Source of the DNA: Yinghuangia seranimata
Lineage (GTDB): Bacteria > Actinomycetota > Actinomycetes > Streptomycetales > Streptomycetaceae
DNA length: 40,166 nt
Assembly (NCBI RefSeq): GCF_029953285.1
Contig: NZ_JASAOI010000092.1
Span: 1-40,166 of the forward strand
Direction: 5' to 3'
The first letter of the stretch is position 1. Every line of letters starts with the position of its first letter. A program made the translations under genes and the position numbers. Under the pieces are notes generated by a model. That model did no database searches. It saw only the letters and a program-made list of their open reading frames with translations, and was not told the DNA's origin. Shown one piece after another: positions 12,053-24,319 of this stretch.

Positions 12053-13462
12053 TCAGATCTGGTACGCGTACTCCGCGAACTCCCAGTCGGTGACGTGCTG
12101 CCGGAAGCGGTCGACCTCGTCGCGCTTGTACGTGGTGAACGCGTCGACGAAGCCGGGGCCGAGGAGTTCGGCCAGTTCGGTGTCGGCGGCGAACGCGTCG
12201 AGGGCGGCCGGGAGACTGTCGGGCAGCATCGGCGCCTTGTCGGTGTCGTAGCCGTAGCCCTCCAGCGGCGCGGGCGGCTCGGCCTTGTCGCGGATGCCCA
12301 GGTGCAGTGCGGCGACCAGGGCGGCGATCGCGAGGTACGGGTTGGCGCTCGCGTCGCCGAGGCGCAGCTCCAGGCGTGCGCCGGGGCCGCGTTCGGGCGG
12401 GATCCGGACCATCGCGCTGCGGTTGTCCAGGCCCCAGTCGATCAGCCACGGGGCGAGGGTGTCCGGGCCGAACCGCTTGTACGAGTTGACGGTCGGGTTG
12501 AGCAGCGCGGCCATCGCGGGGGCGTGCCGCAGCACGCCGGCGATGGCGTGCCCCGCGGTCTCGGACAGCCCGTACGGGCGGCCGGGACCGTCGAACACGT
12601 TGCGGCCCTCCATGTCGACGACGCTGACGTGCAGGTGGAATCCCGAACCGCCCTCGTCGTTGAAGGGCTTCGCCATGAAGGTCGCCAACCGGCCTTCGAC
12701 GCGGGCGATTTCCTTGATCGCCGACTTGAAGAGGAAGGCGCGGTCAGCCGCGTCGAGCGCGTCGGAGTGGTCGAGGTTGATCTCGAACTGCCCCGAGGCG
12801 AACTCGTGGTTGCCGTTGGTCGCGCCGATGCCGAGGCCGGCGAGCCGGCGCAGGGTGCGCAGCAGGTGGGCGTCAGGGTCGCCGCGGCGGCCCGCCACGT
12901 ACACGTTGCCGGACGCCTCGCCGTAGCGGCGCCAGCCGCCGTTGCCGTCCGGGTCGCAGAGGAAGTACTCCAGCTCGGGCCCGACGACCACGCGGAGCCC
13001 CTGGTCCTGCTGGAGTCGTCGGAGCACGGTGCGCAGCACCGCGCGCGGCCCCTCGGGGGCGAGTTCGCCGGTGGCGGGGTCGGTGGCCTCGCCGAGGCAC
13101 CAGGCCACGCCGGGTTCCCAGGGCAGCGGCCGCGCGGTGGCGAGCTCGGGGCGCACCGAGACGTCGGGCAGGCCGACGTCCAGGCCGCCGGCGACCGGGA
13201 CGACGCCGCCGCGCGGGGTCGTGTGGTAGACCGCGCGGCAGAACGCGAGGCCGTGCGCGTGCACCGACGGCAGGTGGTCGACGAGGACGTCGCGGCCGCG
13301 GTCGGTGCCGATCAGGTCGGGATAGACGACGCGGACGACGTCGATGCCGCGGGACTTGAGGTCCGCCGTCGTGCTGCGGACGTCGCCGTCGTGCGCGGGG
13401 GCGGGGGCCGGGACGGGCGCGGGTACTGCGGCCGGGACTGCGGCGGGTTCGGATGCGGGCAC
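12053..13462 (-). CDS. Glutamine-synthetase-family gamma-glutamyl-amine ligase
   Basis: A 469-residue class I glutamine synthetase homologue. Active-site segments are visible: GPELEYF (metal-binding Glu), [25 protein letters not shown] (His), [15 protein letters not shown] and [17 protein letters not shown]. An Ala/Pro-rich tail of about 25 residues precedes the domain. The start is GTG 13462, behind GAGGAG. Its position with a P450, PuuC- and PuuD-like enzymes and an APC permease suggests ATP-dependent gamma-glutamylation of an amine, as in PuuA, AtdA1 or IpuC, rather than ammonia assimilation. P450, ferredoxin, reductase and GS genes also cluster in mycobacterial cyclic-amine degraders. A regulon palindrome lies 43 nt upstream. 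Confidence 0.88.
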
Positions 13463-13504
13463 CGGACTCTCCTCGCGGGGTCGGGCAGGCGGCGGAGCCG
13501 ATTC

Positions 13505-13518
13505 GTTTGAATCCAAAC
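13505..13518. promoter_or_regulatory. Shared regulon palindrome, copy B
   Basis: GTTTGAATCCAAAC on the plus strand (GTTTGGATTCAAAC on the minus strand). It lies 43 nt upstream of the GS-like start and overlaps its -10 box by two bases, the same geometry as copy A. Confidence 0.78.
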
Positions 13519-13545
13519 AATATGGCCGCGCGGGGTGCCGCACAA
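13517..13545 (-). promoter_or_regulatory. Candidate promoter of the GS-P450 operon
   Basis: Minus strand: TTGTGC (13545-13540), a 17-nt spacer and TATTGT (13522-13517). The -10 box runs into palindrome copy B. Confidence 0.55.
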
Positions 13546-13604
13546 GAGGTTCCGGAGGGGTTCCGTGCCGGTTCGGCGCCGGTTCCGCGGGAGTCGCCCC
13601 GGGG

Positions 13605-13633
13605 GTGACAGCGGCGCGCGAGGGGCATATCGT
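13605..13633 (+). promoter_or_regulatory. Candidate promoter of the acetoacetate-decarboxylase-like gene
   Basis: GTGACA (13605-13610), a 17-nt spacer and TATCGT (13628-13633). The final GT of the -10 box is the start of palindrome copy C, again the shared geometry. Confidence 0.55.
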
Positions 13634-13648
13634 ACGGACCCAAACGAT
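13629..13648. promoter_or_regulatory. Shared regulon palindrome, copy C (variant)
   Basis: ATCGTACGGACCCAAACGAT. The outer ATCGT/ACGAT arms are perfect; the left inner arm is GTACG instead of GTTTG. Its reverse complement matches copy D1 at 17659 in 18 of 20 positions. It lies 45 nt upstream of the GTG of the acetoacetate-decarboxylase-like gene. Confidence 0.7.
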
Positions 13649-13693
13649 TAATCACGGGCGGTGCGTCCGCCCCCAGCGACCCGAGGAGGCGCC

Positions 13694-14512
13694 GTGACCG
13701 GCGTGCGCGGTTTCTTCCACCCCAAGACCGGCACCGGCCGGTCCTCGCTCGTCCCGGCCCCGCCGTGGCACTACTCCGGCGACCTGCTCACCGTCGAGTA
13801 CCGCACCGACCCCGCGCGTGTCGCCGAACTCCTGCCCGCCCCCCTGGAGTTGGCCGACGAGGACCCCGGCGCCGTCGCGCTGATCTGGGCCGACTGGCAG
13901 TCCTGCGCCGCCGACCGGGCGGAGCTGCTCGACCCGGTGCGCGGGCAGTACAAGGAGTGCTTCGCGGTGGTGCGCTGCAAGTACCAGGGCGTCACGTACT
14001 CGCGCTGCGTCTACATCTGGGTCGACAAGGATTTCGCCGTCGCCCGCGGCCTGCACCAGGGCTACCCCAAGAAGCTGGGCTCGATCCACCAGACCCGCCC
14101 GCACCCGTACGGCCCCGCGCCCCGCATCGAGGCCGGCGCGGTCTTCGGCGCCACCCTGGCGGCGGCCGACCGGCGGCTCGCCGAGGCCGTCGTGACCCTG
14201 CGCGAGCCCGCCGAGAACAACGGCTTCGTGAACGGGCACCCGATGGCCCACCACCGCTGGCTGCCGTCCATCGAGCCCGGCAAGGGCTTCGCGCTCGACG
14301 AACTCGTCGCCAGCGGCGCCGAGTCCGTCGAGGCCGGTCCGGCCTGGGCGGGCGACTTCGAGCTGGCGCTGTACGACGCGCCCACCGAGGAGCTGTCCCG
14401 GCTCGAGGTCCACGAGCCGATCGGCGCGTACTACCGGCAGGTGGGCGTGGTGTGGAACGGCGGGACGCTGCTCGCCACCGGCACGACCACGGTGGCGGAC
14501 GGCACGGCCTGA
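13694..14512 (+). CDS. Acetoacetate decarboxylase superfamily enzyme
   Basis: A 272-residue protein with the ADC fold. The segment GYPKKLGS (K126, K127) matches the paired active-site lysines of acetoacetate decarboxylase, one of which forms a Schiff base. The start is GTG 13694 with GGAGG four nt upstream. Family members include true decarboxylases and Schiff-base aldolase-dehydratases such as MppR. The neighbouring meta-cleavage genes would yield oxo-acids, so it may decarboxylate, hydrate or cleave a pathway intermediate; this is inference. It is transcribed divergently from the GS-P450 operon, each side with its own palindrome. Confidence 0.85.
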   Translation: MTGVRGFFHPKTGTGRSSLVPAPPWHYSGDLLTVEYRTDPARVAELLPAPLELADEDPGAVALIWADWQSCAADRAELLDPVRGQYKECFAVVRCKYQGVTYSRCVYIWVDKDFAVARGLHQGYPKKLGSIHQTRPHPYGPAPRIEAGAVFGATLAAADRRLAEAVVTLREPAENNGFVNGHPMAHHRWLPSIEPGKGFALDELVASGAESVEAGPAWAGDFELALYDAPTEELSRLEVHEPIGAYYRQVGVVWNGGTLLATGTTTVADGTA

Positions 14513-14518
14513 CCCCGA

Positions 14519-14549
14519 GACCGCCCGGGCGCCATCGGCCCGGGCGGTC
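14519..14549. terminator. Bidirectional terminator
   Basis: A perfect 12-bp stem (GACCGCCCGGGC / GCCCGGGCGGTC) with the 7-nt loop GCCATCG. It lies between the convergent ADC-like gene and the 99-residue protein gene. Confidence 0.85.
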
Positions 14550-14580
14550 CCACGCGACGCGGCCTCTCGGGTGCTCTGCG

Positions 14581-14880
14581 TCAGTCGGCGCCGGTGACGC
14601 CGGGCGCCACGAACCGCCGGTGCAGCGTCTGGTACTCGGCCTCCGGTTCCGTGGTGATGCCGGCCTTCACGACGGCCGCCATGAGCTGTGCGTCGCGGAA
14701 GCGCTCGAAGTGCCCCTGCGACTCCCACACGTCGGTCACGCGCAGGGCGCCCGGCTCGAACCACGCCACGTGGATGTACGCGCCGTCTGGCGCCTGTTCC
14801 TCCCAGCCGACCGCGTCGCGCACCTCGTCGTACTGCCCGGGTGTCACGCCAGGCCAGCGCAGCGACAACACGACAGCCAT
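14581..14880 (-). CDS. Small dimeric alpha-beta-barrel-like protein
   Basis: A 99-residue protein with the feel of an antibiotic-biosynthesis-monooxygenase-like ferredoxin fold: a strand (MAVVLSLRWPG), a helix (TPGQYDEVRDAVGW), then VTDVWESQGHFERFRD, a pattern common in such dimeric barrels. ATG 14880 follows GGAGGGG. It lies 188 nt downstream of the luciferase-like gene on the same strand. The function is unknown; members bind or oxidise small aromatic compounds or act as structural dimers. Confidence 0.75.
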   Translation of the reverse strand: MAVVLSLRWPGVTPGQYDEVRDAVGWEEQAPDGAYIHVAWFEPGALRVTDVWESQGHFERFRDAQLMAAVVKAGITTEPEAEYQTLHRRFVAPGVTGAD

Positions 14881-15068
14881 GGAACCCCTCCTTCACTGCT
14901 GGATCGGACGGCACCCCCGCACTTCCAGCACACCGCCGAAGGCGGCCGAAGAGTGTCTCGTTTACGCAAAATACGGGACATCCCCACAGCGCACGCACAC
15001 CACGAACACCATACGTCCCACCTTGCACGCCCCCTCCGCGCGCCGGCCGAGGGGGCGTCGCGGGCGGA

Positions 15069-15998
15069 TCAGAGCGCGGCGGTACGCCGGACGATCTCGC
15101 GGCACAGCGGGCCGACCTCGACACGCTCGTCGGTGTACTGCGACGGCTTGACGCAGATCGTCGTGAAGCCGCGCGCCATCTGGCCCGGGATCGACTCCAG
15201 GGCCGGGGCGATCGGCGCCGGGCTGTGGTCGTCGGGGAAGGTCGGGCGGATCCCGCCGACCATCTCCAGGGCGCCCGGGTCGCGGCCCGCTACGGTGAAC
15301 GCGGTTCGGAGCGTTCCGAGTTCCTCGTCGGACGGCTGGCCGAGCGGGTGGAAGCCGTGCCCGTACCGGACCAGCCTGCGCAGCACGGCCCCGTGCACCG
15401 AACTCCCGCCGAACCACAGGCGCGGGCCGTCCGGGCGGTACGGCTTCGGCACCAGGTACACGTCCTCGAACGGGTAGTCCGGGTCGTCGAACGAGGCGGG
15501 GGTGTCCCGCCACAGCGTCTCCCAGGCCGCGAGGTGCGCGTCGAGCAGCCGGCCGCGGCGCCGGAACGGGACGCCCAGCGCGGCGTATTCGGGCTCGTGC
15601 CAGCTCACGATCGGCTGCACGACCAGGCGGCCCTCGCTCAACAGGTCGAGTGCCGCCAGCTCTTGGGCCAGGACGAGCGGGTGCCGCAGCGGTGCGATCA
15701 CCCCGGCGGCGACCAGGCGCAGGCGCGTGGTCGCCGCCGCGATCGCGGTCAGCAGGGTCAGCGAGTCGGGCCACGGCGTCGCCGGGTCCTGGTTGCCGGG
15801 CAGGGCGTAGTCGCGCGGGTTGGCCATCAGGCCGTTCGCGTCGGCGCCCTTGCCCAGCACGATGTGCTCGCTGACCATGACGGCGTCGAATCCGGCGTCC
15901 TCGGCCTCGCGGGCCATGTCGACCAGCGAGCGCAGGTCGCGTGGATCGGTGAGCGTCCAGTTCTCGCTGAGGACGAGGACGAGCCGGGGCGGGGTCAT
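15069..15998 (-). CDS. LLM-class (F420-dependent) oxidoreductase
   Basis: A 309-residue luciferase-like TIM-barrel protein. It begins with a strand region (PPRLVLVLSENWT), followed by DMAREAEDAGFDAVMVSEHIVLG. Then come TRLRLVAAGVIAPLRHPLV and the family signature of a coenzyme-binding loop (RLWFGGSSVHGAVLRRLVRYGHGF). In actinomycetes many such proteins use coenzyme F420, but FMN use is possible. ATG 15998. It follows the APC permease gene by 80 nt and probably shares its transcript. It may reduce or oxidise an intermediate of the imported substrate; the exact step is unknown. Confidence 0.85.
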   Translation of the reverse strand: MTPPRLVLVLSENWTLTDPRDLRSLVDMAREAEDAGFDAVMVSEHIVLGKGADANGLMANPRDYALPGNQDPATPWPDSLTLLTAIAAATTRLRLVAAGVIAPLRHPLVLAQELAALDLLSEGRLVVQPIVSWHEPEYAALGVPFRRRGRLLDAHLAAWETLWRDTPASFDDPDYPFEDVYLVPKPYRPDGPRLWFGGSSVHGAVLRRLVRYGHGFHPLGQPSDEELGTLRTAFTVAGRDPGALEMVGGIRPTFPDDHSPAPIAPALESIPGQMARGFTTICVKPSQYTDERVEVGPLCREIVRRTAAL

Positions 15999-16078
15999 GC
16001 GGTCTCCGTTGCGGTGGTGCGGTTCTGACGGTCGATCAGGGGTGGGCGGGTCGGGGATGCCGCGTGCCGGGCGGGTCG

Positions 16079-17623
16079 TCAGGCGCCCGCTCCCCGGCCG
16101 ACGCCCGCGTACACCTCGGGCTTCGCGCGGCGCAGCCACGCGCCGTACGCCGTCCCGACGACGCCCGCGCCGATGACGAGGGCGGGCAGCACCCAGCGCA
16201 GCGACGAGCCGGCGTCCACGCCGAGCAGGACGCCGAAGTTGTCGACGGCGAGCACGAACACGACGGCGAGGGAGACCGCCGCGACGAGCGGGGCGACGAG
16301 CCGGTTCCAGAGCGTCTCGGGCGCCTCGTCCGGGCCCGCGCCGCCGGACGTGCGGCGGAAGTACACCGCGACGCCCAGCGAGGTCAGCACCAGCAGGAGG
16401 ATCACGCCGAGCGCGCCGACGTTGGTCAGCCAGTTGAACAGCGTGGCCAGCGGGTCCTTCTTCAGCACCGCGAACACGCCGACGACGAGCGCCGCGAGCG
16501 CCGTCTGGGCGAGCGAGCCGATGTGCGGCGAGCCGTGCCGCGCGTGGCTCCGGCCCAACCCGCGCGGCAGGACGCCTTCGCGGCCGAGCGAGAAGAAGTA
16601 GCGGGCGACCGCGTTGTGGAAGGACAGCAGCGCGGCGAAAAGGCTGGTGATGAGGAACGCCTGGGCCACGTCGGAGAATCCGGAGCCGATCTGGTCGTCG
16701 GCGAGCACGAACACGAGGTTCGGGCCGTTCTCCTGCGACTGCGCGACAGCCTGGTTCGCGCCGGTGCCGGTCATCAACGCCCACGCGGTGACCGCGTACA
16801 GCACGCCGATCACGCCGACGGCGATGTAGGTGGAGCGGGCCACCGTGCGGCGCGGGTCCTTGCACTCCTCGCCGTACAACGCCGCCGACTCGAAGCCGGT
16901 GAACGACGCCATGACGAAGCAGAACGCGGCGCCGGTCGAGCCGGCCGTCAGCGCGCTCCACGTGAACGGGTCGAGCGAGACGCCGTGCGGCGCGGCGTGG
17001 AAGGCGCCCGCGTCGAAGACGACGATCGTCGCGGTCTCGATGGTGAGCAGGACGGCGAGCACGCGGGCGTTGAGGTCGACGCGCAGGTAGCCGAGCACCC
17101 CGACGACGGCGATGCCGATCAGCACGATCAGCCACCAGTCCAGGTCCCAGCCGAACTTGTCGTTCAGGAAGTCCGAGGTGGTGAAGCCGAACAGGCCGTA
17201 GATGCCGATCTGCATCGCGTTGTACGCCACCACCGCGACGAACGCGGCGCCGACGCCCGCGACGCGGCCGAGGCCCTGCGAGACGTACGCGTAGAACGCG
17301 CCCGCGCCGGTGATACGGCGGCTCATGGCGGCGTAGCCGGAGCTGAAGACCGCGAGCATCGCCGCGAGGATCAGGTAGACGAGCGGGATGCCGGTCGTCC
17401 CGGTGACCGCGAGGCTCTGCGGCACGCCGCCCGCGGCGACGGTCAGCGGGGCGGAGGCCGCGACGACGAAGAAGACGATGTGCGGGACGCCGAGCGAGCC
17501 GCGGGGGAGCGGCTTGATTTCGGGGGCGGCCGGGTCGGCGGCGGGCACGGCGGCGTCCCCCGACGCGGCGCCGGACGGGACGCCGGAGGGGGCACGGCGG
17601 ATCGGGGGTTCCTCGACGGCCAT
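16079..17623 (-). CDS. APC-family amino acid/amine permease
   Basis: A 514-residue membrane protein with about 12 hydrophobic segments. The first contains the APC signature region (HIVFFVVAASAPLTVAAGG), followed by SRRITGAGAFYAYVSQGLG. The conserved segment FTGFESAALYGEECKDPRRTV is typical of amino acid/polyamine permeases. The N-terminal 45 residues are Ala/Pro-rich and cytosolic. ATG 17623 has GGAG 8 nt upstream. In this cluster it is the likely uptake system for the amine that the GS-like ligase glutamylates, as PuuP is for putrescine in E. coli; substrate inferred. Palindrome D1 is 36 nt upstream. Confidence 0.88.
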   Translation of the reverse strand: MAVEEPPIRRAPSGVPSGAASGDAAVPAADPAAPEIKPLPRGSLGVPHIVFFVVAASAPLTVAAGGVPQSLAVTGTTGIPLVYLILAAMLAVFSSGYAAMSRRITGAGAFYAYVSQGLGRVAGVGAAFVAVVAYNAMQIGIYGLFGFTTSDFLNDKFGWDLDWWLIVLIGIAVVGVLGYLRVDLNARVLAVLLTIETATIVVFDAGAFHAAPHGVSLDPFTWSALTAGSTGAAFCFVMASFTGFESAALYGEECKDPRRTVARSTYIAVGVIGVLYAVTAWALMTGTGANQAVAQSQENGPNLVFVLADDQIGSGFSDVAQAFLITSLFAALLSFHNAVARYFFSLGREGVLPRGLGRSHARHGSPHIGSLAQTALAALVVGVFAVLKKDPLATLFNWLTNVGALGVILLLVLTSLGVAVYFRRTSGGAGPDEAPETLWNRLVAPLVAAVSLAVVFVLAVDNFGVLLGVDAGSSLRWVLPALVIGAGVVGTAYGAWLRRAKPEVYAGVGRGAGA

Positions 17624-17658
17624 GGGCGGGTCTCCAAGGGAGGACGGATCCGGAGTCG

Positions 17659-17678
17659 ATCGTTTGGGGCCGTACGTT
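17659..17678. promoter_or_regulatory. Shared regulon palindrome, copy D1 (variant)
   Basis: ATCGTTTGGGGCCGTACGTT, upstream of the permease gene. One arm is GTTTG, the other CGTAC. It closely matches the reverse complement of copy C. Confidence 0.68.
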
Positions 17679-17691
17679 TTCCGTGTGGCTG

Positions 17692-17708
17692 ATCGTACGG
17701 ATGCAAAC
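17692..17708. promoter_or_regulatory. Shared regulon palindrome, copy D2 (variant)
   Basis: ATCGTACGGATGCAAAC, 67 nt upstream of the MarR start. It has the same left arm as copy C and the same right arm as the canonical sites. Two sites in one divergent gap (D1, D2) would let one regulator control both the permease and its own gene. Confidence 0.62.
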
Positions 17709-17774
17709 AGGCCGCCACAAGAGCTAGATTTCGGGCCAGGGCAGCACGAAGGCACAGGACGGAGCAGGGGCAAC

Positions 17775-18362
17775 GTGGGCGTCGGCAAGCGATCCATCAC
17801 CGAGACCGAGAAGGCCGTCCAGGAACGGCTCGGCGACATCCCGCTGCGCCGCGAGCAGATGGCCGCCGTGTCGAACATCTACCGCGCCGCCACCGCCGTA
17901 CGGCAGCACCTGGAGAACTCGGTGCTGCGCGAGGCCGAGCTGACCTGGACCGCCTTCACCGTGCTGTGGGAGGTCTGGATCTGGGGCGAGTCCGAGACCC
18001 GGCACGTCGCCGAGGACGCCGGCATCTCCAAGGGCACGCTCACCGGCGTCGCCCGGACGCTCGAGTCGCGCGGCCTGCTCACCCGCACCCAGCACGCCTC
18101 CGACGGGCGGCTCGTGCTGCTCGCGCTCACCCCGGCCGGCGAGGAGCTGATGGCGCGGGTGTTCCCGGCGTTCAACGCGGAGGAGGCCTTCGTCACCGAG
18201 GACCTCAGCCCCGCTGAGTGCCTGAAACTTGCGGACGGGCTGCGGAAGATCGTGGCGCGCCTCGAGGCCAAGGGCGAGGAGCGCCGCGAGGAACTGCTCG
18301 CGGGCGAGGCGCCGAAGCCGCGGCGCAGCGGGCGGCGGCCGAGGAACGGCGCGGCCGGATAA
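17775..18362 (+). CDS. MarR-family transcriptional regulator, likely regulon repressor
   Basis: A 195-residue protein. A winged helix lies at about 57-118: TWTAFTVLWEVWIWGESETRHVAEDAG, then the recognition helix ISKGTLTGVARTLESRG, then the wing HASDGRLVLLALTPAG. N- and C-terminal helices would form the dimer, and a basic tail (KPRRSGRRPR) ends the protein. The start is GTG 17775, with AGGGG four and GGAG ten nt upstream. It is divergent from the permease across palindromes D1 and D2. As the only regulator inside the catabolic region, it is the best candidate to bind the shared palindrome. MarR proteins commonly respond to aromatic acids or CoA thioesters. Confidence 0.88.
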   Translation: MGVGKRSITETEKAVQERLGDIPLRREQMAAVSNIYRAATAVRQHLENSVLREAELTWTAFTVLWEVWIWGESETRHVAEDAGISKGTLTGVARTLESRGLLTRTQHASDGRLVLLALTPAGEELMARVFPAFNAEEAFVTEDLSPAECLKLADGLRKIVARLEAKGEERREELLAGEAPKPRRSGRRPRNGAAG

Positions 18363-18367
18363 TCATG

Positions 18368-18395
18368 TTGCCGGGCGGTCCGGCGCGCTCATAGT
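18368..18395 (+). promoter_or_regulatory. Candidate promoter of the tRNA-like pair
   Basis: TTGCCG (18368-18373), a 16-nt spacer and CATAGT (18390-18395). Transcription would begin near 18402, leaving only about 7 nt before the first tRNA-like acceptor stem, much like a real tRNA gene. Confidence 0.45.
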
Positions 18396-18408
18396 CTCCC
18401 GGTGACGA

Positions 18409-18480
18409 CAACGTGTAGCTCAGTCAGCAGAGCACCGGGCTTCCTACCCGGAGGGCGCAGGGGCGGGACCTGCCACGTTG
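18409..18480 (+). ncRNA. tRNA-like RNA 1 (72 nt, anticodon position UCC)
   Basis: It folds as a full cloverleaf of canonical dimensions. Acceptor 7 bp (CAACGTG/CACGTTG, perfect), then T8 A9. D-stem GCTC/GAGC with 8-nt loop AGTCAGCA. Anticodon stem CCGGG/CCCGG with loop CTTCCTA, anticodon 18442-18444 TCC. Variable loop AGGGC. T-stem GCAGG/CCTGC. Core tRNA bases T8, A14, G15, A21, T33 and C48 are kept. The T-loop, however, is GGCGGGA instead of TTCRANN, and G18 is A, so the G18-psi55 contact is lost while G19-C56 could remain. It is not a standard tRNA-Gly. No CCA is encoded. Role unknown. Confidence 0.8.
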
Positions 18481-18482
18481 GA

Positions 18483-18554
18483 CAGCGTGTAGCTCAGCTA
18501 GAAGAGCACCGGGCTCTGGACCCGGAGGGCGCAGGGGCGGAACCTGCCGCGCTG
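18483..18554 (+). ncRNA. tRNA-like RNA 2 (72 nt, anticodon position CUG)
   Basis: The second copy begins 74 nt after the first, with a GA before each copy. Same dimensions. Acceptor CAGCGTG/CGCGCTG (6 Watson-Crick pairs and one U-G). D-arm GCTC-AGCTAGAA-GAGC. Anticodon arm CCGGG-CTCTGGA-CCCGG, anticodon 18516-18518 CTG. Variable loop AGGGC. T-arm GCAGG-GGCGGAA-CCTGC. Relative to copy 1 the acceptor shows a compensatory A-U to G-C change and a U-A to U-G change, which supports a selected fold. Stems are otherwise identical, while the D and anticodon loops differ. It ends 3 nt before the ATG of the next gene. Confidence 0.8.
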
Positions 18555-18557
18555 GCT

Positions 18558-20840
18558 ATGAACGAGAACCTCGCGCAGGTGCGCGCCAACCCGGGCTACG
18601 CCTACGGGCAGCTGGCCAAGGCCTTCGTGACCGCGTCCGACCACGAGGACGCCGCGACCAGGCGACGCGCCGAAGAGCGCATCCGCGACTGGCAACGCGT
18701 CGCGCGCGGGATGGCCGACGGATCGCTCGCCATCGGCAGCCGCACCCCGGTCGCCGGACTGCCCGCCTGGGTCACGCCCACGGTCGTGCGCGGCGGGTTC
18801 GCCACCGGCGAGGCCGCGGCGGGCGGGCCGCTCCTGCCGTACGAGACCGAGACCGCCGAGCGGTTCGGACTGCGCGCGGCCGACCGCGGCGCGCTCTTCG
18901 ACCACTACCTCACCGACGCGGGCGTCGCCGAACTCGGCGCGCTGCTGGACAGCGGCTGCTACGAGGTCGCGGTGCCCGAAGAGGCCGCGCTACTCACCGT
19001 CGCCTGGCTGCTGCGCGCGGGCGACCGGGCGGGCGCGCTCGAACTGCTGGCCGGGATCCGGCCGTTCGCCGACCGGCTCCGCTTCGCGCCGCGGCGCGTC
19101 CTCGAACCGCCCTTCGACGGGACGGCGGTGCACCGCGAGACCGTCGGCGACGTGCGCGACGGGCTCGCCCAGCGGCGCCGCAACCGCAAGGTCGAGACGA
19201 TGAACGAGGCGCTGCGGGTGTGGAACCCGTACGCCGACACGCTGCTCCAGCACTGGCTGGAGACCGTGTCGGAGGGGCGCGTCGCGGCGGTCCGGCCCGA
19301 GGGCTGGGCGCAGCGCGGCCGTGAACTCCTCGACGAGTACGCGCGGTTGGCGGCTTCGCACAAGCTGTGCTCGAAGCACCGCAAGCCGAAGGAGAACCCG
19401 GCGATCCTGCGCGCCGCTCTGGAGGACGCGGTCGCGGGGCGTGCGCTCGCGCCGCATCGGCTCGGGCTGCTGCAGCACGCCGTCGACTCGATGGTCGCCC
19501 GCCGCGGCGCGCCCGGCTCGGAGCGGCACACGGGGCTGCGGGAGCGGCAGGCCGCCGACGCGCTGCACGAGTCGCCGTACCAGCTCGCGCAGATCCTGAT
19601 CGGGCGGCTTTCGGCCGTGCCGCACGGCATCGGGTTGCCGTCGACCGACTGGGTCCTCGAGCCGGTCACCGCGGACGAGGCGCTGGCCACCGGCGTGACC
19701 GAGGGGCGGGAGTTCCCCGACGCGCTGCGGTCCGTCGTCGAGCGCGCGCTGAGCGCTCCGGTGGCGACCCTGGTCGAGCGCGGCGTGGTGCCGTCGGCGG
19801 AGGTGCTGGCCGAGCTCGTGCCGCAACTCGTCGCCGCGACGACGGCCTTGTCGTACCGCGACGCGTCGCTGCGTACGCTCATGACGGCCGTGCACCGGGC
19901 GTTCGCCAACCGGCGCTCGCTGCTGCTCGTCAACCTGGAGAGCCAGGTGCGGATGGACGAGCTGCCGTGGGTGCGGGCGGTCGCGGCGTACCGGCGCGGC
20001 ACCGACGACACGCGGGGCAACGCGCACGCGACGCTCGCCCAGCTCGGCGAACTCGCGCTGCGGGCCTTCCCGGGGACCATCCTGCCGAACCCGCTGCTCC
20101 AGGAACTGCGGGCGCTGGCAAAGCAGTCCGACGTGGTCGTGCCGTTCACCGAGGAACTGGCCGCGGACATCTTCATGGGCACCTTCTCCGCGAAGTTCCT
20201 GCAGGCGGCGCAGCTCGCCGGGGAACTGCTGGAGGGCTCGCTGTACGCCCGCTACTACGGGATCGACTACGCGGCGCTGTCGGCGATGGCCGTGCCGAAG
20301 CAGGCGCGGGCGGCCTGGCCGTCGACGAGCACCCCGCCGGCCGCCGACTTCGCCGCGCTGTGCCGGGAGCGGGCGGGGTCGTCGTCGGGCCGGTCGTGGG
20401 TGGCCGCCAACGGCAAGGTCATCGAGCAGGCGCAGATCCTGACGACGCACAACCTCGCGTTGCTGGTGCACCCGGTCGGCGTCGAGCCGGCGGACGGCTG
20501 GGACGGGCGCGCCCGCGGGGCGTTCACGGCGACGTGCCGGCTCGTGCGGCAGGTCCACAACAACCCGCGGCCGCTCGGCACCATCAAGGACGCGGCGTAC
20601 GCGTGGCGGCAGACGGTGTTCTTCCTGTCGCTGTGCGGGCTCGCCGACCAGATCAGCGTGACGGCGTGGATGCAGGACGAGGCCGCGCGGCAGCCCGACC
20701 ACGTCGCGGCACGCCTTGAGCCCCTCCTTGAAGGGCTGCGCGTGGTGCTGACCGGCGGAACGCTCGGCGACGGCGAGACCCCGATGCACGGTCGGCGCTT
20801 CCTCGGCTGGAGCACGGACGGGCACTGGATGCGGGGCTGA
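18558..20840 (+). CDS. Unrecognised 760-residue protein behind the tRNA-like pair
   Basis: I do not recognise this family. It is a soluble, largely helical protein with no membrane segment or signal peptide and no obvious nuclease, kinase or P-loop motif. A basic, His/Cys-containing stretch (HKLCSKHRKPKENP, about residues 268-281) could contact nucleic acid. It does not look like a Ro/TROVE protein. ATG 18558 is chosen because an earlier in-frame GTG (18402) would translate through the tRNA-like RNAs. No Shine-Dalgarno sequence precedes it, since the upstream bases belong to the second tRNA-like acceptor stem. Co-transcription with the RNAs, and release of a nearly leaderless mRNA by tRNA 3' processing, is plausible. 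A terminator hairpin follows. Confidence 0.85.
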   Translation: MNENLAQVRANPGYAYGQLAKAFVTASDHEDAATRRRAEERIRDWQRVARGMADGSLAIGSRTPVAGLPAWVTPTVVRGGFATGEAAAGGPLLPYETETAERFGLRAADRGALFDHYLTDAGVAELGALLDSGCYEVAVPEEAALLTVAWLLRAGDRAGALELLAGIRPFADRLRFAPRRVLEPPFDGTAVHRETVGDVRDGLAQRRRNRKVETMNEALRVWNPYADTLLQHWLETVSEGRVAAVRPEGWAQRGRELLDEYARLAASHKLCSKHRKPKENPAILRAALEDAVAGRALAPHRLGLLQHAVDSMVARRGAPGSERHTGLRERQAADALHESPYQLAQILIGRLSAVPHGIGLPSTDWVLEPVTADEALATGVTEGREFPDALRSVVERALSAPVATLVERGVVPSAEVLAELVPQLVAATTALSYRDASLRTLMTAVHRAFANRRSLLLVNLESQVRMDELPWVRAVAAYRRGTDDTRGNAHATLAQLGELALRAFPGTILPNPLLQELRALAKQSDVVVPFTEELAADIFMGTFSAKFLQAAQLAGELLEGSLYARYYGIDYAALSAMAVPKQARAAWPSTSTPPAADFAALCRERAGSSSGRSWVAANGKVIEQAQILTTHNLALLVHPVGVEPADGWDGRARGAFTATCRLVRQVHNNPRPLGTIKDAAYAWRQTVFFLSLCGLADQISVTAWMQDEAARQPDHVAARLEPLLEGLRVVLTGGTLGDGETPMHGRRFLGWSTDGHWMRG

Positions 20841-20850
20841 CCGACGCGAC

Positions 20851-20879
20851 GCGGGCCTGCCGGGTTCCGGCGGGCCCGC
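20851..20879 (+). terminator. Terminator hairpin after the 760-residue gene
   Basis: A 13-bp stem with one G-U pair (20851-20863 with 20867-20879) and the 3-nt loop GTT, 10 nt after the stop codon. No T-run. Confidence 0.75.
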
Positions 20880-20883
20880 TCCG

Positions 20884-20889
20884 TACCCT
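20884..20889 (+). promoter_or_regulatory. Possible -10 box of a leaderless transcript
   Basis: TACCCT (TANNNT pattern) ends 6 nt before the ATG at 20896, the position expected for a leaderless actinobacterial promoter. The gene shows no Shine-Dalgarno sequence, which agrees with this reading. Confidence 0.4.
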
Positions 20890-20895
20890 CGACGC

Positions 20896-21540
20896 ATGGC
20901 ACTGCTCCTCCGCGGCCTCGACGACCGCACCGCCGACCAGCTGGTCGCGCTCGCCGGCCTGGCCTGGGCGGACGGCGAGACGATCCACGCCGCCGCCGAG
21001 GCGTTCGGCTGGACGCCGGGCGGACCGCACGACGCGGCGTACCTGACGACGGGCGGGCACCCCGTCTACCCACTCGACTTCGGTGCGCCGGGGCCGGTGG
21101 GGGCGGACACGGCGTGCCTGGTGCCGTTCGCGTACCTGTACGAGGCGTCGGCCGACGACGTCCCCGACGAACTGCTGGGCCTGCGCACCGACCTGACATG
21201 GTTTCGGGGCTATGCGGGCCACGACGCGCGCTGGCGCTACGACCGGACCGCGGGGCGCGGACTCTTCGACGAGACGTGCCACGCCGTGACGGAGCTGTTC
21301 GTCGACCGCCTCGGCCCGGCCGACCTCACCGCCCGGTTCCCCGACGGCACGTCGGACGACGAACGCCCGCCGTGGCACTACGCGGCCTGGCGCCTGCGCG
21401 ACAAGATGCTCCTCGTCGGCCAGGCCGCCGACCCAGTGGCCGACGGAACCTTCGAGTACGCGGCGGTCCGCATCGGCCGCTACCCGACCGGCGCCCGGCT
21501 CCCGTCGCCCGACGACCTGTGGCTGCTGATGGAGGGCTGA
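20896..21540 (+). CDS. Unrecognised 214-residue acidic protein
   Basis: No family recognised. An acidic, soluble protein with many Trp and Tyr residues in its second half (WFRGYAGHDARWRYDRTAGR; PPWHYAAWRLRDKML). Early segments such as LVALAGLAWADGETIHAAAEAFGW suggest helices, and the later part looks mixed alpha/beta. It lies 55 nt after the 760-residue gene on the same strand but beyond its terminator, and is probably translated from a leaderless mRNA. Whether it works with the tRNA-like module is unknown. Confidence 0.75.
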   Translation: MALLLRGLDDRTADQLVALAGLAWADGETIHAAAEAFGWTPGGPHDAAYLTTGGHPVYPLDFGAPGPVGADTACLVPFAYLYEASADDVPDELLGLRTDLTWFRGYAGHDARWRYDRTAGRGLFDETCHAVTELFVDRLGPADLTARFPDGTSDDERPPWHYAAWRLRDKMLLVGQAADPVADGTFEYAAVRIGRYPTGARLPSPDDLWLLMEG

Positions 21541-21665
21541 CGGGCTTTCCCGTGTTGCTCGGCGCCGCGAACCGCCATAATCGACGCGCGACTTCGGCTC
21601 GACGCAGCGCGCGGGCACGGAGGCGTGGGGGGCTACCCGCTGATCACCTGTATCAGGAGTGCCCG

Positions 21666-22028
21666 ATGGACTACACCCGCCGCGACGGCTGCCCGCACTG
21701 GTGCCGAGGCCACGTCGCCTGGCAGACCGGCCCGACCGAGCGACTGCACCACGACGCTTCAGGCGTCACCGTCCGCGTCCCGATTTCGGTGCCGGAGGGC
21801 ACCGAGCGGACCGCCGTCTGGGCGTCGAAGGGGCCCGACACCGACCTCAAGATCATCATTTCCCGCTGCGTCCCGATACCGGGGTCCAACCCGTGGCGCG
21901 TCGACCTCAGCGTCCACCAGGCCCGCCAACTCGCGGGCCTGGCAGATGTGTTCGCCCCGGGCCTCGCGGACGCCCTCCGCAAGGTCGTCGGCGTGGTGAC
22001 CAGCGGGAGGCCCCCGAAGACCCGGTAA
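21666..22028 (+). CDS. Small Streptomyces-type protein, DUF6907-like
   Basis: A 120-residue protein starting at ATG 21666 behind AGGAG (6-nt spacing). Its N-terminus MDYTRRDGCPHWCRGHVAW carries a CPxWC pair typical of short actinomycete proteins of the DUF6907 kind, which often lie near helix-turn-helix genes. The C-terminal half (VDLSVHQARQLAGLADVFAP) resembles the dimer-like helix of these proteins. The function is unknown, and the family name is from memory. It is convergent with the PuuD-like gene across a terminator. The 125-nt gap before it shows no further gene. Confidence 0.72.
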   Translation: MDYTRRDGCPHWCRGHVAWQTGPTERLHHDASGVTVRVPISVPEGTERTAVWASKGPDTDLKIIISRCVPIPGSNPWRVDLSVHQARQLAGLADVFAPGLADALRKVVGVVTSGRPPKTR

Positions 22029-22037
22029 GTTGCCGCC

Positions 22038-22069
22038 GCCCGCACCGGGGTCGGGGCCCCGGTGCGGGC
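22038..22069. terminator. Bidirectional terminator
   Basis: A perfect 13-bp stem (GCCCGCACCGGGG / CCCCGGTGCGGGC) with a 6-nt loop, between convergent genes ending at 22028 and 22073. Confidence 0.85.
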
Positions 22070-22072
22070 GCA

Positions 22073-22789
22073 TTACACGGGGTCGGCCGCCCGCACCCGG
22101 GCGTGCTCGACCAGGGTCTCGAACAGTCCGCGGTTCGCAGGGTCGGTGCCGGCGAGGTCCTCCGGATGCCACTGGACGGCGAGGAACAGCGCTTTGGCGT
22201 CGCGGAGTTCGACGGCCTCGACGGTGTGGTCGGCGGCTCGCGCGGTGACGGTCAGGCCCCGGCCGAGGCGGTCGACGGACTGGTGGTGGTAGCAGGAGAC
22301 GTCCGGGTTCTCGGTACGCACGGCCGCGGCGACGGCCGAGCCCGGGCGGAGCTTCACCGGGTGCACGAGATGGCGGTGGTGGGTCGGCATGTCCTGGGTC
22401 AGGGTGCCGCCCAGGGCCACGTTCACCACCTGCATGCCGCGGCAGACCGCGAGGGTGGGCAGGCCCGCGTCGAGGGCGTGGCGCGCGGCCGCGAGGTCGA
22501 AGGCGTCCTGGGTGTCGTCGACGTCGTAGACCTCCTCGTGGACGTCGGTCGCACCGTACGTGTGGGGCGCGAGGTCGCCGCCGCCCGGCAGGAGGAGGGC
22601 GTCGCAGCGGGCGAGCCGGGCCGGCGCGGACGACGGCTCGGCCGGGTGCATCATGAACGGCTCGCCGCCCGCCTCGTAGACGGCTTCGGCGAGCGCCCGG
22701 GCGGTCACCTCGGCGGCGTACCGCAGGGCCGACGTGCGTTCCGCGAACCGGCAGGGCAGCGCGACCAACGGGCGGCCTGTCGGCCTCAC
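22073..22789 (-). CDS. PuuD-like gamma-glutamyl hydrolase (peptidase C26)
   Basis: A 238-residue enzyme of the gamma-glutamyl-GABA hydrolase type. The Cys nucleophile lies in LAVCRGMQ (C116), and His and Glu in AVQWHPEDL (H208, E210). The segment ALLLPGGGDLAPHTYG is also typical. It starts at GTG 22789, and its GTGA overlaps the TGA of the aldehyde dehydrogenase gene, so the two are translationally coupled. In the Puu pathway this enzyme removes the glutamyl group after aldehyde oxidation. Here it probably releases free product and glutamate from a gamma-glutamyl compound. The start is a best guess because no separate Shine-Dalgarno sequence is seen. Confidence 0.87.
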   Translation of the reverse strand: MRPTGRPLVALPCRFAERTSALRYAAEVTARALAEAVYEAGGEPFMMHPAEPSSAPARLARCDALLLPGGGDLAPHTYGATDVHEEVYDVDDTQDAFDLAAARHALDAGLPTLAVCRGMQVVNVALGGTLTQDMPTHHRHLVHPVKLRPGSAVAAAVRTENPDVSCYHHQSVDRLGRGLTVTARAADHTVEAVELRDAKALFLAVQWHPEDLAGTDPANRGLFETLVEHARVRAADPV

Positions 22790-24270
22790 AGCTGCACCCA
22801 CGTGGTCTTCAGGTCCGTGTACTTGTCCAGCGCGTGCAGCGACTTGTCGCGGCCGTGGCCGGACTGCTTCATGCCGCCGAACGGGACGTTCAGGCCGCCC
22901 TCCTCGTAGCAGTTCACCCACACCGTCCCGGCCCTGACGGCGCGTGAGACCCGGTGCGCGGTGGACAGGTTCGCGGTCCAGACGGCGGCGGCCAGGCCGT
23001 ACTCGGTGGCGTTCGCGAGGCGCACGGCCTCGTCCTCGGTGTCGAACGTCAGGACGCTGAGCACCGGCCCGAAGATCTCGTCGCGGGCGAGCGCCATGTC
23101 CGGGGTGACCTGGTCGAAGACGGTGGGTTCGAGGTACGTCCCCGGCCGGTCGAGCCGCCCGCCGCCGCAGCGCAGCCGGGCGCCCTCCGCGCGGGCGGTC
23201 TCGATGTGGCCCTGGACCCGCTTGAGGTGTGCCTCGGTGACGAGCGCGCCCATCTCGGTGGCGGGGTCGAGGGGGTCGCCGACGCGCAGGGTACGGCCGC
23301 GTTCGACGACGGCGTCGACGACCTCGTCGGCTATGGACCGGTGGACGAGCAGCCGCGACGGCGCGGTGCACATCTCGCCCTGGTTGAAGAAGATCCCCCA
23401 GGCGGCGGAGGCCGCGGCCGCGGCGAGATCCGGGGCGTCAGGGAAGACGATGTTCGGTGACTTGCCGCCGAGTTCGAGCCAGACCCGCTTGAGGTTGGAG
23501 TCGGCGGCGTAGCGCAGGAAATGCCGGCCGACGGCCGTCGAGCCGGTGAACGCGAGGACGTCGACGCCGGGGTGCAGACCGAGCGCGCGGCCGGCCTCCG
23601 GCCCGTCGCCCGCGACGACGTTGAACACGCCCGGGGGCAGCCCGGCTTCGACCGACAGGCGGCCGAGGAGGAGCGCGGAGAGCGGGGACTGCTCGGCCGG
23701 CTTGAGAACGGCGGTGCAGCCTGCGGCCAACGCCGGGGCGATCTTCCACGCGGCCATGGTGAGCGGGAAGTTCCACGGCACGACGGCCGCGACGACGCCG
23801 ACGGGCTCCCGCGTGACGAGGGCGAGCGCGTCGGCCGCGGTCTGCGGCAGCTCGTCGACGAGCTTGTCGGCGGCCTCGCCGTACCAGCGGAACGTGTTGG
23901 CGACGGCCCGGAGTTCGATGCCGTAGGCCTCGGTGACGGGCTTGCCCATCTCCAGACTGACGGCCAGCGCCAGCTCGGTCCGGTGCTCCTCGACGAGCTC
24001 CGCGAACCGGACGAGCGCCCGCCCGCGCTCGGTAGGCGTGAGCCGAGGCCAAGGCCCCTCGTCGAACGCCCGCCGCGCGGCGGCCACGGCGAGATCGACC
24101 TCGCCCTGCCCGCCACACGCGACCTCGGCCAGCGCCCGCCCGTCACGCGGCGAGACGACGGTGAACGTACGCCCACCCCCGGCGTGCGGCCCGCCGTCGA
24201 TGTGATGCTCCGTCACAGGCCGAAAGGCGCCCGCAAGCGACTGCCAGTCGGCGTGGGTGAGGTCGGTCAT
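22786..24270 (-). CDS. PuuC-like aldehyde dehydrogenase
   Basis: A 494-residue NAD(P)-dependent aldehyde dehydrogenase with N167 (VVPWNFP), catalytic base E266 (LELGGKSP) and nucleophile C301 (FFNQGEMCTAPSR). The C-terminus (SGHGRDKSLHALDKYTDLKTTWVQL region) closely resembles E. coli PuuC, the gamma-glutamyl-gamma-aminobutyraldehyde dehydrogenase. ATG 24270 follows GGGAG. It precedes and overlaps the PuuD-like gene in one operon, downstream of palindrome copy E. It likely oxidises the aldehyde formed from the glutamylated amine or a related arylacetaldehyde; substrate inferred. Confidence 0.9.
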   Translation of the reverse strand: MTDLTHADWQSLAGAFRPVTEHHIDGGPHAGGGRTFTVVSPRDGRALAEVACGGQGEVDLAVAAARRAFDEGPWPRLTPTERGRALVRFAELVEEHRTELALAVSLEMGKPVTEAYGIELRAVANTFRWYGEAADKLVDELPQTAADALALVTREPVGVVAAVVPWNFPLTMAAWKIAPALAAGCTAVLKPAEQSPLSALLLGRLSVEAGLPPGVFNVVAGDGPEAGRALGLHPGVDVLAFTGSTAVGRHFLRYAADSNLKRVWLELGGKSPNIVFPDAPDLAAAAASAAWGIFFNQGEMCTAPSRLLVHRSIADEVVDAVVERGRTLRVGDPLDPATEMGALVTEAHLKRVQGHIETARAEGARLRCGGGRLDRPGTYLEPTVFDQVTPDMALARDEIFGPVLSVLTFDTEDEAVRLANATEYGLAAAVWTANLSTAHRVSRAVRAGTVWVNCYEEGGLNVPFGGMKQSGHGRDKSLHALDKYTDLKTTWVQL

Positions 24271-24319
24271 GGGGGGCTCCCGCTCTCGGCCCGACGAGGT
24301 CACGACCGCCCCGCCAGTT

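Follow-up and report, generated by a model that had tools for sequence, protein, structure and literature searches.

The locus

The window, a stretch of 40,166 nt of Yinghuangia seranimata DNA (contig NZ_JASAOI010000092.1), carries two tandem tRNA-like RNA units directly upstream of an open reading frame (ORF), P0001, on the same strand, with a promoter-like motif ahead of the first unit (Table 1). A sequence-only reading of this DNA had described two tandem cloverleaf units at 18409-18554, and these are present: each unit is 73 nt long with position 73 (72 nt without it), the period is 74 nt, and folding of both gives a complete cloverleaf with stems of 7, 4, 5 and 5 bp. The aberrant T-loop GGCGG(G/A)A and the A at position 18 are also as that reading described them, the T-loops of the two copies being GGCGGGA and GGCGGAA and both copies having A18. 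ARAGORN calls the units tRNA-Gly(tcc) (18409-18481) and tRNA-Gln(ctg) (18483-18556), and the Rfam tRNA model (RF00005) gives 49.5 bits to each, above the gathering cut-off of 29. The minimum free energies of the two units are unremarkable (z-scores of -1.36 and -0.91), such z-scores of single sequences being uninformative for fold selection.

Table 1. Features of the RNA-protein module in the window
Feature	Position	Strand	Description
-35-like hexamer TTGCCG	18368..18373	+	TTG-N18-TAnnnT before the RNA
-10-like hexamer TAGTCT	18392..18397	+	11 nt before the first RNA; part of TTGCCG-N18-TAGTCT
tRNA-mimic RNA copy 1	18409..18481	+	Triplet UCC, loop CUUCCUA; model R1 92.9 bits
tRNA-mimic RNA copy 2	18483..18555	+	Triplet CUG, loop CUCUGGA; model R1 92.4 bits
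Partner ORF P0001, 760 aa	18558..20840	+	ATG 2 nt after RNA copy 2; without recognised domain

A family of RNAs tied to one protein gene

The P0001 ORF has relatives at 168 places, and 80 of these were taken for locus analysis. These 80 genomic relatives belong to 16 named genera including Streptomyces, Actinomadura, Embleya, Nocardia, Micromonospora, Nocardiopsis and Catenulispora, and a geometric scan, from which three chance or ordinary-tRNA hits were removed, finds a matching cloverleaf upstream of the gene in 80/80. A covariance-model search had been proposed by the sequence-only reading, which regarded the RNAs as a distinct tRNA-mimic family, and it recovers homologous copies in abundance. 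The model, built from 40 sequences, identifies 109 members in 84/84 loci (80 genomic and 4 plasmid), 71 of the 109 lying outside the training alignment; a match in L038 (49.5 bits) is an ordinary tRNA-Pro and is excluded from this count. The members score 70.5-98.5 bits, and model R1 gives at most 63.7 bits to the other matches in the host genome, as against the scores of the window copies in Table 1. Viral contigs contain at least 120 stretches matching the pattern, and the tRNAs in the 80 that were searched score at most 65 bits. The gap between family and ordinary tRNA is narrow for divergent members: three RNAs found later, with 65.4, 62.2 and 45.8 bits, score within the ordinary-tRNA range and are assigned by their position before the gene. 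The window RNAs thus belong to a widespread actinomycete tRNA-mimic family, and the earlier view of them as a distinct family is borne out.

The host genome also contains some tRNA-like matches worth recording in their own right. The one nearest to the mimic family (63.7 bits) is a tRNA-Trp(cca) that lies a few nt from a tRNA-Ser(gct) at C22:409697-409860. Two odd matches are located at C25:25128-25201 and C46:99921-100039; one has an ARAGORN call with a 4-letter anticodon, and the other is 119 nt long and scores 32 bits, with no ARAGORN call.

The same RNA is located upstream of the homologous gene and on the same strand in 84/84 loci, so that the partnership with the protein encoded next door, to which the sequence-only reading had pointed, is strict. 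Among 297 genomes of the host's family, RNA and protein occur together in 51, the protein alone in 5 and the RNA alone in 1 (Fisher p of about 2e-50, uncorrected for relatedness). The six discordant genomes reflect divergent RNAs or gene remnants. In two of the protein-only genomes (G550 and G558), the RNA is present but scores 65.4 and 62.2 bits, below the threshold used; the other three (G474, G594 and G664) have gene fragments, and two short RNA motifs were not found in the stretches fetched from them. In the RNA-only genome (G495), the RNA is followed by the apparent first codons of the ORF and then by unrelated sequence. A set of 396 phylum genomes yields 3 with the RNA and 4 with the protein, the additional genome being that of a homologue whose RNA has canonical loops. 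Searches of 72,556 plasmid records by blastn (RNA pair) and tblastn (protein) match the same 6 records, of which 4 were opened for locus analysis. Two Curtobacterium plasmids share 85% and 88% RNA identity with the window over the aligned pieces, as against 41% and 38% for the protein. The module is patchy (56/297 genomes of the family and 4/396 of the phylum), and the gene is broken or partial in L100 and in G452, G498 and G505 among others, suggesting that the module is dispensable.

A selected cloverleaf with a rewired elbow

In the alignment of 40 sequences, 840/840 cells hold standard pairs, and double-sided changes occur at 8/21 pairs (54 cells), a count reached in 0/500 shuffles. These covariation counts are inflated by the kinship of the sequences and are given alongside a control in which the partners are slid by 1-3 columns, resulting in at most 46% pairing and at most 5 double changes. 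Selection on the cloverleaf fold, which had earlier been proposed from the two window copies, is therefore shown by covariation among relatives, with no help from minimum free energy.

PMC4810234 describes the contacts that ordinary tRNA makes through positions 18, 19, 55 and 56. In the mimic family, the D-loop follows the pattern A-R-(1-3 nt)-A-G-(1-3 nt)-R in 108/109 members, giving A18 and G19, while G55 and C56 are present in 109/109, so that the G19-C56 pair can form. The family thus departs from the ordinary-tRNA combination of G18-G19 with U54-U55-C56-R57-A58. The elbow is rewired and not lost, with A18·G55 in place of G18·U55 and G19-C56 kept. The sequence-only reading had held that both elbow contacts are lost, and this needs correction: the 18·55 contact is exchanged and the 54·58 pair inside the T-loop altered, and G19 and C56 are retained in both window copies.

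Positions 54 and 58 covary, being G·G in 99 members, U·A in 9 and U·G in 1, with U54 in loci L037, L067, L095, L104 and L109. Locus L069 has G·G despite sharing its D-stem change and loop with L067, so the 54·58 pair has probably undergone more than one switch. At the Levitt pair 15-48, 95 members have G-C, 7 have A-U and 7 have neither. A distant homologue from another class of the phylum (L260) shares 31-39% protein identity with the six plasmid homologues. Two RNAs lie upstream of it, of which the better has canonical G18-G19 and UUCGAAU loops and the other is irregular. Both loops are canonical solely in this better RNA, so that position pair 18·55 differs between two lineages, G·U in one and A·G in the other. 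The A·G pair presumably occupies the same place in space as G·U.

A drifting anticodon loop

The variation in the RNA is greatest at the centre of the anticodon loop, where entropy is highest at positions 35 and 36 (1.68 and 1.65 bits), followed by 34 and 59 (1.51 each). By comparison with these, C32 and U33 are invariant (109/109). The 109 members contain 26 different complete triplets. A34, A35 and U36 are rare (3, 2 and 6 of 109 members), and with these nearly absent the complete triplets include no anticodons for Leu, Ile or Val codons.

The triplet does not keep a stable anticodon identity among orthologues. In 311 locus pairs with proteins 70-80% identical, the rate of difference is 0.45 for triplets, 0.40 for fourfold-degenerate sites, 0.21 for five further variable sites of the RNA and 0.06 for RNA positions outside the loop; in 114 pairs with proteins 80-90% identical, the corresponding values are 0.29, 0.25, 0.13 and 0.03. 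The 432 locus pairs in this comparison are not independent, and in genomes this rich in GC the fourfold sites may approach saturation. On these figures, the triplet drifts about as fourfold sites do. All 19 multi-copy loci have at least two different triplets each, and the two copies in the window differ likewise. Loci L074 and L104 additionally contain identical copies, and the difference in L108 is a deletion in one loop. The triplet is either unread or read by something that rewards variety.

The possibility that the loop is a guide to its own mRNA was considered and rejected, complementarity to the mRNA being no higher than for permuted loops (99 loops). In an upstream stretch, the 7-mer count is 5 against 1.8 expected, with 9/500 permutations as high, and this was one of nine comparisons.

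The putative partner protein

P0001 has no match in Pfam, PADLOC or NCBIfam, and its profile has none up to E = 1 among PDB sequences. Its relatives have only scattered weak matches in Pfam and PHROG, and no fold or catalytic motif emerged from these searches. No toxin family is present among the Pfam matches of P0001 and its relatives, or in PADLOC or NCBIfam for P0001. The protein is mostly basic, with a median pI of 9.2 (range 6.0-10.2, 39 family members). An alternative in which the RNA region is the coding N-terminus of the protein is rejected, since both the D-loop length and the RNA-ORF spacing vary out of frame.

Membership of the TROVE (Ro60) family is also rejected: P0001 has no Pfam match, and TROVE is absent among the 10 families matched by 40 members. 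Alignment by hhalign gives a probability of 0.1%, no better than the reversed control, with a TROVE set of 12 uncurated sequences obtained by a simple longest-frame rule, so that some N-termini or frames are doubtful. A separate TROVE ORF, Rsr/Ro60-like, is encoded elsewhere in the host genome (C41:18536-18769) and contains a DTSGSM stretch, which we take to be a vWA-like motif.

Probable transcript organization and genomic neighborhood

A promoter-like pattern with a spacing of 17 or 18 is present in 61/85 loci (mean 0.17 and maximum 2 in base shuffles), the end of its -10 element lying 8-13 nt upstream of the RNA. The position of this motif just before the RNA suggests that the RNA is likely to be the first thing transcribed, with the protein next on the same transcript. 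In 81/84 loci and in the window, an in-frame ATG or GTG follows the 3' end of the RNA at 1-3 nt, leaving no space for a ribosome-binding site between RNA and ORF. In L079, the ATG located at 3 nt does not share the frame of the protein match, and two Curtobacterium loci have in-frame spacings of 11 and 13 nt. Most loci (65/85) have one RNA copy, and 20/85 have 2-4. Locus L074 has four tandem copies (L074:5688-5998) with a spacer that repeats the ORF start (CTATGAACGA), whereby the duplication units seem to include the start codon.

The neighbor upstream of the window module is a MarR-type regulator. Around the module (12053-24303), the minus strand has ORFs with Gln-synt_C, Peptidase_C26 and Aldedh matches, suggesting genes of amine catabolism. 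Across the loci, the only widely conserved neighbor of the RNA is the protein itself (78/80), the next neighbor family occurring in only 10. Neighboring genes lie on either strand about equally, as called by a simple codon-position rule that sometimes assigns the wrong strand (L033, L035, L040 and L043). In several clades, the module is located at one fixed place among housekeeping genes. No defence-island signal was found in PADLOC among the 25 most frequent neighbor families, first (142) and third (134) neighbor proteins being alike, in a scan that covered proteins of up to 700 aa and omitted one piece of the broken L100 gene. Among first neighbors, 2 match Type I specificity models and 2 methyltransferase models; among third neighbors, individual members match methyltransferase models, and both sets include a few mads-type matches. 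Upstream of the RNA, some Actinomadura loci (L034, L036, L039, L040 and relatives) carry genes that resemble those for Type I methyltransferase (6 loci) and specificity (5 loci) proteins. No relative of the protein was found in 50,697 phage records or in two pattern-based scans of viral contigs. A defence role is possible but unsupported.

Proposed mechanism and alternatives

We propose, with about even confidence, that the locus encodes a module of at least one non-decoding tRNA-mimic RNA and one protein, which are made from a single transcript and form a ribonucleoprotein (RNP), the RNA acting in trans and serving its role by posing as a tRNA. Transcription would start at about the 5' end of the first RNA. 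RNase P and RNase Z, the ordinary tRNA processing enzymes, would probably excise the RNAs, and excision would leave a leaderless mRNA beginning just before the AUG of the protein. Once freed, the RNA would serve the mostly basic protein in trans as its dedicated partner. The protein would probably grip the conserved acceptor, D/T elbow and variable loop, with the freely varying anticodon loop facing away. As a guess, the mimic, in posing as a tRNA, may set the activity or target of the protein, and the protein may thereby encounter or monitor some component of translation or of tRNA handling. A bound pair is favored by the strict linkage, by an RNA body that is more conserved than the protein and by the predominantly basic character of the latter. 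Points that weigh against a trans-acting RNP are the 1-3 nt spacing, which would also fit a cis-acting leader, the majority of loci with a single copy, a protein in which no fold or catalytic motif was found, and the fact that the protein is not basic in all members (lowest pI of 6.0).

The leading alternative, which we consider unlikely, is a cis-acting tRNA-like 5' leader that is bound or cut by the protein or by a tRNA-processing enzyme and so sets the synthesis of the protein itself. Such a leader would account for an RNA that is always upstream and on the same strand, for its close spacing to the start codon and for the promoter-like motif just ahead of the first RNA. Tandem copies further upstream are, however, equally intact, the best of them scoring above the ORF-side copy in 9 of the 19 multi-copy loci, below it in 9 and equal in 1. 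The ORF-side copy is clearly weaker in L101 (80.3 versus 92.8 bits) and L108 (70.5 versus 91.0 bits), triplets diverge between copies, and the Curtobacterium spacing is wider. Intact upstream copies together with a weak ORF-side copy in these two loci favor action in trans over a pure leader.

A further reading, also unlikely, is a new class of RNA-protein system built around a captured tRNA that the protein carries or by which it is gated. Elbow rewiring (A18·G55 for G18·U55) would have taken this tRNA out of translation, and its anticodon loop would be free to diversify, between tandem copies too, as a bait or sensor for tRNA-acting agents.

A type III toxin-antitoxin-like system or guard, in which the RNA would hold a toxic protein in check until damage to the mimic sets it free, is a doubtful reading. 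The damage might come from the tRNA anticodon nuclease of a phage or rival, for example, and varied anticodon loops would then widen the range of bait. The upstream, same-strand RNA with 2-4 copies in some loci, the differing loops in every multi-copy locus, the patchy occurrence and the broken or partial genes are all in keeping with it. Against it stand a protein with no match to a defence or toxin family in the searches above, direct neighbors about as poor in defence matches as third neighbors, the absence of relatives from the phage records and viral-contig scans, and the fixed place among housekeeping genes in several clades.

We regard as very unlikely an accessory tRNA that still decodes, comparable to the allo-tRNAs, whose anticodons span 35/64 codons according to the available part of PMC7609411. 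The complete cloverleaf and conserved core of the mimic would suit a decoding tRNA. The drift of the triplet at about the rate of fourfold sites (0.45 versus 0.40), U37 in 13/105 members with complete loops and the loops shortened by missing bases (4/109) argue against decoding, and further points against it are the triplet UCA in 6 members, A34 in 3/109 and the use of cognate codons in the ORF, which shows no difference in relation to the triplet. The usual T-loop modifications need U55 and A58. Finally, decayed ordinary tRNA genes or attachment-site remnants, suggested by the rank of the window copies (58th and 59th among the 60 tRNA matches in their own 9.8-Mb genome, lowest but one), are scarcely credible against a 109-member family, perfect pairing in 40 aligned sequences and a fixed partner gene.

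Relation to known systems

Several known systems resemble the proposed module of RNA and protein in part. YrlA is a tRNA-mimicking non-coding RNA encoded near the gene of its binding protein Rsr (Ro60, TROVE), and consists of a tRNA-like module attached to a Ro-binding stem. The likeness lies in a tRNA-mimic RNA beside a protein gene, whereas the family described here is a free-standing 73-nt cloverleaf abutting a start codon, and its protein has no TROVE match, which places the module outside the Ro/Y-RNA systems. In the 61/85 loci with the promoter-like motif 8-13 nt before the RNA, this motif and an ORF 1-3 nt after the RNA would leave no room for such a stem. In type III toxin-antitoxin (ToxIN-like) systems, an RNA, sometimes repeated, immediately precedes a single protein gene and has the same orientation. 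The mimic RNA shares this position and orientation, with 2-4 copies in 20/85 loci and one in the other 65, but differs in being a tRNA mimic with a 760-aa putative partner that matches no known toxin, and the 1-3 nt between RNA and ORF leave no room for a terminator.

The allo-tRNAs are likewise tRNA-like RNAs with many anticodons, as is the mimic family with its 26 complete triplets. Their acceptor branch has 12 bp, arranged as 8/4 or 9/3 (Mukai et al. 2017, reviewed in PMC7609411, available part). Membership in this group is rejected, since the branch has 7 + 5 pairs in all 40 aligned mimics, which also differ in their 5-nt variable loop and fixed protein partner. The tRNA-Other of Bacillus cereus is a pseudo-tRNA outside translation, part of a larger RNA and with a Trp anticodon, as described in the available part of PMC3399842; it resembles the mimic family in being a tRNA-like RNA, for which a non-decoding role is proposed in the mimic. 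The mimic differs in having a linked protein gene, a dedicated protein partner for tRNA-Other being unreported in that part of PMC3399842. No description of the present RNA-protein module was found in the open-licence literature. The kind appears to be new, as neither the protein nor the RNA-protein pairing fits the described kinds compared here, and the mechanism may place the module nearer to one of them.

The family is easily overlooked, because tRNA finders and Rfam label its RNA as plain tRNA. If the proposal is true, the module would represent a new bacterial reuse of the tRNA fold, in which a natural tRNA with an exchanged elbow contact is tied to one protein family throughout actinomycetes. 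The mimic would provide a ready test of which rewiring of the elbow is compatible with folding, and would open up an uncharacterised protein family for which the gene itself hints at the ligand.
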